A stretch of 64,000 nt of DNA from Candidatus Bathyarchaeota archaeon (GTDB lineage: Archaea > Thermoproteota > Bathyarchaeia > RBG-16-48-13 > JAGTRE01), in the NCBI GenBank assembly GCA_018396415.1, contig JAGTRE010000002.1:1-64000 (forward strand), written 5' to 3'. Made by a program: the position numbers and the translations under genes. This document shows positions 57,799-60,909 of the stretch, piece after piece (positions within the stretch are counted from its first letter, which is position 1; every line of letters starts with the position of its first letter). The notes beneath the pieces were generated by a model. The model was not told where the DNA came from. It searched no databases and worked only from the letters and a program-made list of their open reading frames with translations.

Positions 57799-59811
57799 AT
57801 GAGCCTTGAGTCTTTAGCTAGGAAATTCTTTCCCTACCCGAACTATAGACCCTTTCAAGTAGATGCCATACGCTTCGCCTATAACGTAATAAAGAATAAG
57901 CGAATTGGCCTTATGTCCTCTCCTTGCGGCACTGGGAAATCCATCTCGGTTCTAACCGCATTTTTCATGGCAAGAGAACAAGGTGCTAGAGATAGATTGC
58001 TTGCTTTAACCCGCACTCGTAACCAACTGGAAATTTACTGTAGAGAACTTAAAACAATTAAGGAGTATTCAAATGCTTCTTTCATCGCTTCTATGTTTAA
58101 AAGCAAACAGGAAATGTGCCCCCTAGTCAAAGAAAATCCGAAACTAAGGGAAATTAGTTACACAGATTTCCTCCACTACTGTAAACATTTAAAAAGCGGC
58201 GCTTATGGACGTACATGCCAATATTTTGATAAAACTTTGCATCACTGGAAGCCTAGCTGGCACTCCCTTAAACTAATCGAACAAATCAAGCAAATTGGAC
58301 CGCTACTTCCCGACGAAGTTTATGAAGTTTGCTACGAGCAAACGCTTTGCCCCTACGAATTTACGAAAATCCTCGCCGGATACGCAGACATCATTGTTGG
58401 GAACTACAATTATGTGCTTTCTGAAACTATTAGGAAAGCAATCCTCGGTAGGGCGGGAATAAAGTTAGAAGAAATTAATTGCGTTTTTGATGAGGCACAT
58501 GCTCTGCCAGCATACGCAGCAGGGATGCTTTCAAATGAACTTTCAACAATCTCAATTCTCAGGGCTAAAAGGGAGGTAAAAAAGTATCATGCTAACGACT
58601 TTGGATTACTAAAAGCACTCCATAAAGTCGTAAATGAAATTGGAGAAGAAACCTACTCCAAATATGGATACGATGTAGAGCACGTAATTCCGAAAGTTGC
58701 TGTAATAAGTGCTTTGATTAAAAGATTAAACCTTACGGATCCTAGTGAAGTTCTTGATTTAACCGGGAACCTGATGGAGGAAGGAGAAAAAATACGTTGG
58801 ATACGCGTAGAAGAGGGGAAAAGCCCAGTCTCATATTTTTCGAGATGTATAACCTTCTTGAGTGATTGGATTCATGCAGCAGGCGCGGGGTACGTTCATT
58901 ATGCTAAAGTGGTGAAGACGTTAAGTGGAAGGAAACAAATAAGGATCGGAATCAAATGCCTCGACCCCTCCCTAACAACAGCGATATTGAATAAACTTCG
59001 CTCGGTAATTCTCATGTCGGGAACATTGTGGGGCATGGACTATTATATTGATATCCTTGGAATAACTCCTAGTCGAGTTGAAATACTTGAACTCCCAAAT
59101 CCATTTCCCCCAAAAAACCGAGTTCTCCTCGTCGACAAAACAGTTACCACAAAGTATGAAAAACGAACCGAGGAACAAATGCACAAAATAGCCGATAACC
59201 TTCAAAAAATAATTAAAGCAATCGGCGGCAGGGTCGCAATTTTCTTCCCTGCATATGAAGTTATGGAAGCCGTATTAAAACATCTCAAGCTAACTTATCC
59301 ATACCTTACTGAAAGAAAAGATACTAAAATTGAAGAAGTCTTCAACCTTCTAAAAACGAATGAGAAGTGCGCCATACTTGGAGTCGCCCATGGGAAAATC
59401 AGCGAAGGAGTAGATATGACCCTTAATGGAAGAACAATGCTGTCAGGAGTTATTATCGTTGGCCTACCCTACCCGAAAAAGACAGAGCTTCAAAACGCTC
59501 TATTTAACTACTTCAAAGAAAAATTCGGAGAAAAAGCCTACGGATATGCTAATGAAGCACCCTGCATCATAGCCCTAGCACAGTCTGCAGGCAGACTGAT
59601 AAGAAGCCCAGAAGACAAAGGAATCATAGTCATAATGGACAGCAGAACAACCGGCAAAATCAAACAAAAATTTCCCCAAGACTGGAAAAAAGAAATGAAA
59701 TCATACCGCAAAATCGAGAAATTAGTTGCAAAAATTCAAGAGTTCCAAAATCAAGTTAAGGAGGGAACTCGAGAGCAGGCGAGTTCCCTCCTCCCATCCG
59801 GCTCGCTCTAG
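57799..59811 (+). CDS. XPD/Rad3-family iron-sulfur DNA helicase
   Basis: Superfamily 2 5'-3' helicase, 670 residues. Walker A is SSPCGTGKSISVL (about residues 40-52); the iron-sulfur domain holds candidate ligands near C107 (EMCPLV), C128 (HYCKHL), C140 (GRTCQYF) and C184 (QTLCPYEF); the DEAH box is NCVFDEAHALPAY. C-terminal motifs include RVAIFFPAYEVMEAVL, HGKISEGVDM and AQSAGRLIRSPEDKG. It is longer than typical archaeal XPD (about 550) in the middle domain. The start is ATG 57799 or TTG 57796. The last 15 codons run through an inverted repeat and a motif shared with the downstream RNA. Confidence 0.92.
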   Translation: MSLESLARKFFPYPNYRPFQVDAIRFAYNVIKNKRIGLMSSPCGTGKSISVLTAFFMAREQGARDRLLALTRTRNQLEIYCRELKTIKEYSNASFIASMFKSKQEMCPLVKENPKLREISYTDFLHYCKHLKSGAYGRTCQYFDKTLHHWKPSWHSLKLIEQIKQIGPLLPDEVYEVCYEQTLCPYEFTKILAGYADIIVGNYNYVLSETIRKAILGRAGIKLEEINCVFDEAHALPAYAAGMLSNELSTISILRAKREVKKYHANDFGLLKALHKVVNEIGEETYSKYGYDVEHVIPKVAVISALIKRLNLTDPSEVLDLTGNLMEEGEKIRWIRVEEGKSPVSYFSRCITFLSDWIHAAGAGYVHYAKVVKTLSGRKQIRIGIKCLDPSLTTAILNKLRSVILMSGTLWGMDYYIDILGITPSRVEILELPNPFPPKNRVLLVDKTVTTKYEKRTEEQMHKIADNLQKIIKAIGGRVAIFFPAYEVMEAVLKHLKLTYPYLTERKDTKIEEVFNLLKTNEKCAILGVAHGKISEGVDMTLNGRTMLSGVIIVGLPYPKKTELQNALFNYFKEKFGEKAYGYANEAPCIIALAQSAGRLIRSPEDKGIIVIMDSRTTGKIKQKFPQDWKKEMKSYRKIEKLVAKIQEFQNQVKEGTREQASSLLPSGSL

Positions 59812-59821
59812 GGAACTGGGC
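59760..59821 (+). repeat. Three-arm complementary repeat at the helicase stop codon
   Basis: GGAGGGAACTCG (59760-59771) pairs perfectly with CGAGTTCCCTCC (59780-59791), a 12-bp hairpin with an 8-base loop. AGTTCCCT in its second arm can instead pair with AGGGAACT (59810-59817), so two hairpins exclude each other. The last part (59797-59821) matches 60095-60120 in the downstream RNA at about 21 of 25 positions. The stop codon TAG (59809-59811) lies inside it. Confidence 0.65.
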
Positions 59822-59824
59822 TTA

Positions 59825-59869
59825 ATCTAAAATTTTGTATCTAAAGATATAAAACTTTAGATAATTTTT
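59825..59869 (+). terminator. AT-rich palindrome followed by T-run
   Basis: ATCTAAA (59825-59831) and TTTAGAT (59856-59862) form the base of a nearly perfect 38-base palindrome with an inner TTTTGTATCT/AGATATAAAA stem; AATTTTT follows. The position just after the helicase gene fits transcription termination. Confidence 0.5.
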
Positions 59870-59967: not shown

Positions 59968-59976
59968 CATATATTT
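59968..59976 (+). promoter_or_regulatory. Probable TATA box of the 60.0 kb RNA
   Basis: CATATATTT is centred about 28 bases before the first terminal helix of the candidate RNA (from 60005), the usual TATA-to-start distance. The region around it is AT-rich and non-coding. Confidence 0.4.
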
Positions 59977-59997: not shown

Positions 59998-60272
59998 GTT
60001 GCATGGCCGCTGGGTAGGCCAAGTTTCACGCGGAGGAAGATGGGGGAAACCTCATCTACCAAAGCGTAGGCCAAACTGTCACGATTATACCCCGTCCGGT
60101 CTTGCTCTGGGGAACTGGGCGCGAAACCCCGGAACGAGATCTACCCGGGTATAAGTGTGACAGGGCGGCTGGAGGAACCGGTCAACGACGAATGGATAAA
60201 CGGGTAGAAAGTTGACGGGACCTCCTAGCTTGGACCCAGAAGCGGCCTGAAATTACTAAGTTTTGTTTCAGG
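59998..60272 (+). ncRNA. Candidate structured non-coding RNA, about 250-270 nt
   Basis: A GC-rich, multi-helix locus in a 530-base gap without genes. The ends close with GGCCGC/GCGGCC (60005-60010/60242-60247) plus TGGG/CCCA (60011-60014/60235-60238), then CCAAG/CTTGG (60019-60023/60229-60233) and GGAGG/CCTCC (60032-60036/60221-60225). Inside are a 7-bp GAAA-capped hairpin (60039-60056); a long arm made of CTGTCAC/GTGACAG (60076-60082/60157-60163), TTATACCC/GGGTATAA (60085-60092/60147-60154) and a 14-of-15-bp stem (60098-60112/60127-60141) with a 14-base loop; and GTCAAC/GTTGAC (60181-60186/60211-60216). CCTGAAA/TTTCAGG (60246-60252/60266-60272) may be a terminator. I see no SRP helix 8 tip, no RNase P CR-I/CR-V, and no tRNA or 5S hallmark. 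Confidence 0.6.
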
Positions 60273-60345: not shown

Positions 60346-60909
60346 TTATCTCCTATTAATTGATTTTAAAACAAAAAATCCCGTTGTCATCTGAAATGAA
60401 GAGCTTATTAAAAATATTGGTTCAAACCCGAATTGACTCACTATTAGAATAGATATTACCGCAGCAATAGCCTCAGCCACATCATAAGCCGACTCGAATG
60501 CACCTAAAAATAAGCCTCTATTATCATCGCTTAAGTCCGCTGCCAATGCGAGAAGGGCTGGGCGTTGTAGAGCATAGGATAATCCAAAGAAAAAGTCTAC
60601 AACATAAAGTTGCATCAAATTAATTACAAAAACATAGGATAAGGAACATATAGCTCCTATCATAATCCCAGTGAAGAAGATCTTCTTCTTTCCGTAAATG
60701 TCGACGAGCTTTCCTGCAGGTGTCTTAAAAATAGCTGCAACCGAACATAAAATTGCATATGATAAGCCAAAATCTATAATAGATGCTGAAAAACGGTTAA
60801 CAACGAATATGGGATAAATTGGACCTAGCAAACCGACTCCTAAAGAGCTTAGAGTACTTAATGTAAGCATGAAGAGGATTGGTGACCTCCGCATATGCAT
60901 TTCCTCCAA
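60346..60909 (-). CDS. Half-length MFS transporter protein
   Basis: A 187-residue membrane protein equal to one six-helix half of a major facilitator transporter. The MFS loop motif appears in KTPAGKLVDIYGKKKIFFTG, and ALQRPALLALAADLSDDNRG is typical of the N-terminal half. There is no second half downstream: 190 non-coding bases and the 60.0 kb RNA follow. It is either a truncated transporter or a half-size protein that works as a dimer. Confidence 0.68.
   Translation of the reverse strand: MEEMHMRRSPILFMLTLSTLSSLGVGLLGPIYPIFVVNRFSASIIDFGLSYAILCSVAAIFKTPAGKLVDIYGKKKIFFTGIMIGAICSLSYVFVINLMQLYVVDFFFGLSYALQRPALLALAADLSDDNRGLFLGAFESAYDVAEAIAAVISILIVSQFGFEPIFLISSSFQMTTGFFVLKSINRR

Follow-up and report, generated by a model that had tools for sequence, protein, structure and literature searches.

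To our knowledge, few large stand-alone structured RNAs are known from archaea beyond rRNA, tRNA, SRP RNA, RNase P RNA, and small guide RNAs. OLE, ROOL, and GOLLD, which are bacterial or phage RNAs, are stand-alone, highly structured, ornate, and lineage-restricted, and kissing loops link molecules in ROOL and GOLLD (PMC12286853). Comparative genomics has also yielded candidate structured RNAs with a conserved fold, several of which were judged to act in trans (PMC2864571). Here, we describe a stretch of ~250 nt between two genes in the window, that is, the whole 64,000 nucleotides of Candidatus Bathyarchaeota DNA that were analysed, and present evidence that it encodes a previously uncatalogued folded RNA. 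It shares with OLE, ROOL, and GOLLD a stand-alone, structured, and lineage-restricted character and a conserved loop that may have a kissing partner, but it is archaeal, smaller, and without a match in Rfam, and a homo-oligomer is purely hypothetical here. The discovery is of the same kind as that of the comparative-genomics candidates, by conserved fold, although the window RNA has no match in Rfam 15, where many of those motifs are listed.

The original prediction described a non-coding, GC-rich, multi-helix structure at 59998-60272, and all three traits were borne out. No ORF of at least 60 aa was found within this interval on either strand, and its GC content is ~57%, against ~30-45% in the region otherwise surrounding it. 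The + strand folds with an MFE of -121.2 kcal/mol versus -90.2 +/- 5.0 kcal/mol in dinucleotide shuffles (z = -6.25; 0/200 shuffles equal). The predicted GAAA-capped hairpin corresponds to P2, and the predicted TATA box to a TATA-like box upstream (Table 1). Other details were amended. The nested terminal helices are present, with sizes of 7, 4, and 7 bp in place of 10 bp plus two of 5 bp, and are separated by 3-nt bulges on opposite strands; the long arm is present, with ~32 pairs in three stacked segments in place of ~29. The hairpin proposed for the 3' end (~60247-60270) lies where it was expected, but homologues do not keep it, which places the end of the conserved RNA near 60250.

Table 1. 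Coordinates of the RNA and its structural elements in the window.
Feature	Positions	Strand	Remarks
Conserved structured RNA, full length	60003..60252	+	Full-length matches of covariance models R1/R2/R3
TATA-like box CATATATTT	59968..59976	+	~36-44 nt before invariant GGG
P1a terminal helix, 5' strand	60005..60011	+	Pairs with 60241-60247
P1a terminal helix, 3' strand	60241..60247	+	Pairs with 60005-60011
P1b 5' strand GGGU	60012..60015	+	GGG invariant 15/15; pairs with 60234-60237
ACCCAG, P1b 3' strand plus AG	60234..60239	+	CCCA invariant 15/15; also complementary to apical loop
P1c 5' strand, into four-way junction	60019..60025	+	100% of cells paired
P1c 3' strand	60227..60233	+	Pairs with 60019-60025
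P2 hairpin	60026..60069	+	A5 helices 4 and 5, 93-97% of cells paired
P3 long arm, ~32 pairs, internal loops	60070..60169	+	A5 helices 6-8
P3 apical loop, 14 nt, AACUGGGCGCGAAA	60113..60126	+	Invariant columns
P4 arm	60170..60226	+	A5 helices 9-11

BLASTN with the window RNA in 101 relatives returned only the RNA itself, because its homologues are only ~50% identical, and covariance models were therefore needed; these found 14 homologues. Model R1 had as its only input the window sequence with its predicted fold. Searching 257 same-class genomes, it retrieved four full-length matches (E 5e-28 to 1e-22, per genome), in Candidatus Hecatella orcuttiae and three other Hecatellales MAGs (Bathyarchaeia). 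This retrieval is a prediction test of the window's own fold. Model R2, built from the window RNA and the four R1 matches, added ten members in another class of the phylum, which is labelled here the Brockarchaeota class after two of the ten, a Candidatus Brockarchaeota MAG and a 'Crenarchaeota' MAG. With model R3, built from all 15 members, the RNA was detected in 10 of the 12 genomes examined of the Brockarchaeota class and in 5 of the 257 genomes of the window's class. Identity to the window RNA is 44-56% across the members, which are few and of which eight come from one genus (g114), and each positive genome holds a single copy. In the window's own order, none of the 11 genomes examined (65-89% complete) carries the RNA. 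The RNA is a conserved single-copy element of some Bathyarchaeia and of most Brockarchaeota-class genomes examined, and its patchiness in Bathyarchaeia (5/257) shows that it is dispensable there.

Weaker signals were set aside. Seven of 13 exact loop-pattern matches in GTDB genomes are bacterial and were attributed to chance, as they cover only the ~20-nt pattern (15-16 bits). Weak matches within the class (L084-L088) span only 18-38 nt around the loop hairpin, and no model-like arms were seen on folding their flanks where these were examined. In the window, a doubtful 20-nt copy (59802..59821, + strand, 18/20 identical) of the apical 5' half of P3 (60101-60120) was ruled out as a second RNA copy; it has no covariance-model score and is a fragment or a chance likeness. 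The phage collection and a pattern scan of IMG/VR gave no matches to the RNA, and no description of it was found in the literature searched.

The members have in common a four-way junction closed by a terminal stem, with a capped hairpin, a long arm, and a further arm. P1a carries compensatory changes in Bathyarchaeia and in L045/L046 and is not formed by the eight copies of genus g114. The P2 cap, GAAA in the window, is mostly GNRA-like elsewhere, and all 15 pairs of the middle segment of P3 show double changes. With five sequences aligned, 94.5% of cells are paired and 45/84 pairs carry double changes; with all 15 aligned, 90.7% of cells are paired and 68/85 pairs are changed on both sides. 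Shuffles of the 15 sequences gave 44.9 +/- 3.2 double-change pairs, and none of 500 reached the observed 68. Double-change cells numbered 274, compared with 89 in the shuffles, and pairing collapsed to ~50% when the partner was slid by one column. Alignments to a covariance model favour the structure because they are fitted to it. The R1 fold, however, was predicted before any homologue had been seen, and the check that it provides is therefore free of this bias. Homologues folded singly recovered most of the model pairs (z from -3.8 to -10.8, always better than antisense), which is a second check without fitting. Compensatory change across the helices, whose absence the original prediction had named as grounds for refutation, is thus present, and selection maintains the fold of P1 and a four-way junction with P2, P3, and P4. 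The excess of G-U over A-C cells (139 vs 28) places the RNA on the + strand, which R3 scores at 179.6 bits; an antisense match of R1 (59 bits), due to near-palindromic helices, falls to 10.9 bits with R3.

When the alignment columns were scanned for helices that the model had missed, one notable extra candidate emerged, a contact between the P3 loop and the 3' CCCA. The loop (consensus GA(C/U)UGGGC(U/G)(C/U)GAAA) is the most conserved element of the family, and the columns invariant in 15/15 include the GGG of P1b, A.UGGGC..GAAA of the loop, and the CCCA. The loop UGGG is complementary to the CCCA in all 15 members. The pair next to it is C-G in seven, U-A in six, and an unpaired C-A in two, so that in the window the contact (60115-60119 with 60235-60239, CUGGG/CCCAG) consists of four invariant pairs and one varying pair. 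This complementarity is suggestive of a contact made by the loop, of a switch, or of dimerization. The loop could compete with P1b, in which the same CCC is paired to the 5' GGG. The case for the contact rests on the one varying pair, and a protein-binding sequence could explain the loop instead.

The RNA of the window is flanked by an XPD-like helicase gene (+) and a short MFS gene (-). The MFS transporter ORF (60346-60909) is only 187 aa and apparently truncated. The XPD adjacency pointed out in the original prediction is real but carries no meaning, as homologues stand beside other genes and the XPD loci of relatives have no adjoining RNA. The RNA of Hecatellales adjoins KaiC-like and pyridoxal-dependent decarboxylase genes, IF-2B-like and metallo-beta-lactamase genes, or a glycosyltransferase gene, with a ribosomal L22-like gene near it; because the neighbours differ between lineages, the XPD neighbour is incidental. 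Genus g114 largely keeps the order NEMF-like, aminotransferase, TrmI-like, membrane protein, RNA, PHP-type gene, and the TrmI and PHP genes recur in G335, a genome of another family. The kept Brockarchaeota gene order indicates vertical descent, at least in that class, and would allow the RNA to be co-transcribed with the upstream gene. Judged from its sequence, the downstream gene is putatively PHP/EndoQ-like; Pfam gave no family for it. One such gene (L072, 8513-10903) contains an intein-like LAGLIDADG insertion, and at L076 and L077 extra genes of ~2-4 kb separate it from the RNA. TATA-like boxes are found upstream of most copies, ~30-46 nt before the invariant GGG. They are TATATTT or CTTATATG-type in Bathyarchaeia (~39-46 nt) and CTTAATAC-type in genus g114 (~30 nt), whose copies are without P1a. 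Two other features precede the RNA in the window: a perfect 13-bp inverted repeat (59759-59792) in the 3'-terminal part of the XPD-like gene, past the portion of its protein that aligns with homologues (to ~residue 653), and a near-perfect AT-rich hairpin (59825-59862) between this gene and the RNA.

We considered whether the structure could have arisen otherwise. GC-rich DNA folds easily, and the antisense strand of the locus also reaches z = -4.37, but chance folding of a GC-rich island is already refuted by homologues with compensatory changes throughout and is practically out of the question. The original prediction left two options, a new class or a strongly diverged known RNA. The former is supported by a fold that diverged genomes conserve with compensatory change (68/85 pairs; 0/500 shuffles), and the latter found no Rfam match. 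At gathering score, Rfam 15 (4227 families) gave no matches in the window or in 12 homologue loci, RF01857 (archaeal SRP RNA) and RF00373 (archaeal RNase P RNA) included. A permissive search around the locus (E up to 10) returned chance matches only, and ARAGORN found no tRNA or tmRNA genes in the window, in agreement with the earlier view that known SRP, RNase P, and tRNA features are lacking. The RNA does resemble archaeal SRP RNA in single copy, length, GC, terminal stem, and long arm, and archaeal RNase P RNA in size and multibranch architecture, and some positive genomes have two RNase P RNA matches. However, a strongly diverged or second-copy form of either is extremely unlikely. The source genome has its own full-length SRP RNA (G000:C4:88887-89199, 179.6 bits) and RNase P RNA (G000:C2:170302-170618, 195.6 bits), so the window RNA replaces neither. 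Separate canonical SRP RNA scores over the cut-off in 15/15 positive genomes and canonical RNase P RNA in 12/15, including 6/6 near-complete ones, the three without it being 70-80% complete; with the canonical genes coexisting, a replacement role is refuted. R3 had no match to the sampled SRP and RNase P loci. The double RNase P RNA matches over the cut-off, L098 and L101 in Hecatella orcuttiae (G033) and L089 and L100 in G261, may reflect duplication or contamination.

A leader, riboswitch, or 3'-UTR structure acting in cis on a neighbouring gene would suit genus g114, where the RNA directly follows the TrmI-like and membrane protein genes and precedes the PHP-type gene on the same strand. 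However, a fixed downstream family and orientation, as a riboswitch or leader would have, is kept in the Brockarchaeota class only. In the window and in Hecatella orcuttiae, the opposite strand carries the downstream gene, which varies elsewhere (metallo-beta-lactamase, PHP, glycosidase); in some Brockarchaeota copies, 2-4 kb separate the PHP gene from the RNA, and a TATA-like box stands just upstream of the RNA. With such varied neighbours, a cis-regulatory role is improbable. The patchy distribution within Bathyarchaeia and the ornate fold could also befit a self-splicing intron, a mobile-element RNA, or a guide RNA of a transposon-related nuclease. We find this origin highly improbable, given the one copy in the window's genome, the vertical descent indicated by the gene order across Brockarchaeota genomes, the classified neighbours without transposase, reverse transcriptase, or RNA-guided nuclease, and the lack of an Rfam intron match. 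It is rather unlikely, though conceivable, that the RNA is a conserved one whose invariant loop acts on tRNA or the ribosome, for example through a CCA-binding UGG. Such sequences occur in the ribosomal P loop and in the T-box. The invariant UGGGC of the loop may resemble the P loop, the Brockarchaeota RNA comes after NEMF-like (ribosome quality control) and TrmI-like (tRNA methyltransferase) genes, and the L22-like gene of Hecatellales is ribosomal. On the other hand, the motif is short, the neighbourhood is not common to the window, and the internal CCCA partner accounts for the conservation equally well; tRNA or the ribosome as a target would be a lead only.

The window RNA is very probably the product of a stand-alone gene for a structured RNA that acts in trans and belongs to a class absent from Rfam; we propose that its loop docks on the CCCA. 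The RNA would be transcribed from its own TATA promoter and may work as a stable RNA or as the core of a ribonucleoprotein (RNP). Its working site would most likely be the 14-nt apical loop of P3, whose CUGGG probably docks on the CCCAG at the base of P1. Within one molecule, the loop would compete with P1b, as a switch; between two molecules, docking would form a dimer in the manner of kissing loops. The least certain step is what the RNA or RNP would act on. We put at about an even chance the fuller picture of an ancient ncRNA class of the Bathyarchaeia and Brockarchaeota lineages, separate from SRP RNA and RNase P RNA, that forms a four-way-junction RNP whose invariant loop pairs with its own or a second copy's CCCA or with a tRNA or ribosomal target.

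A four-armed shape that is kept in at least 15 uncultured archaea, with about half of the letters identical, probably has a real job. Probing, pull-down, and transcript mapping can be aimed directly at the 15 members, at the structure of the model, and at the invariant loop. A class without known relatives that is kept in most of the Brockarchaeota-class genomes examined with heavy compensatory change implies an unknown RNA-based function.
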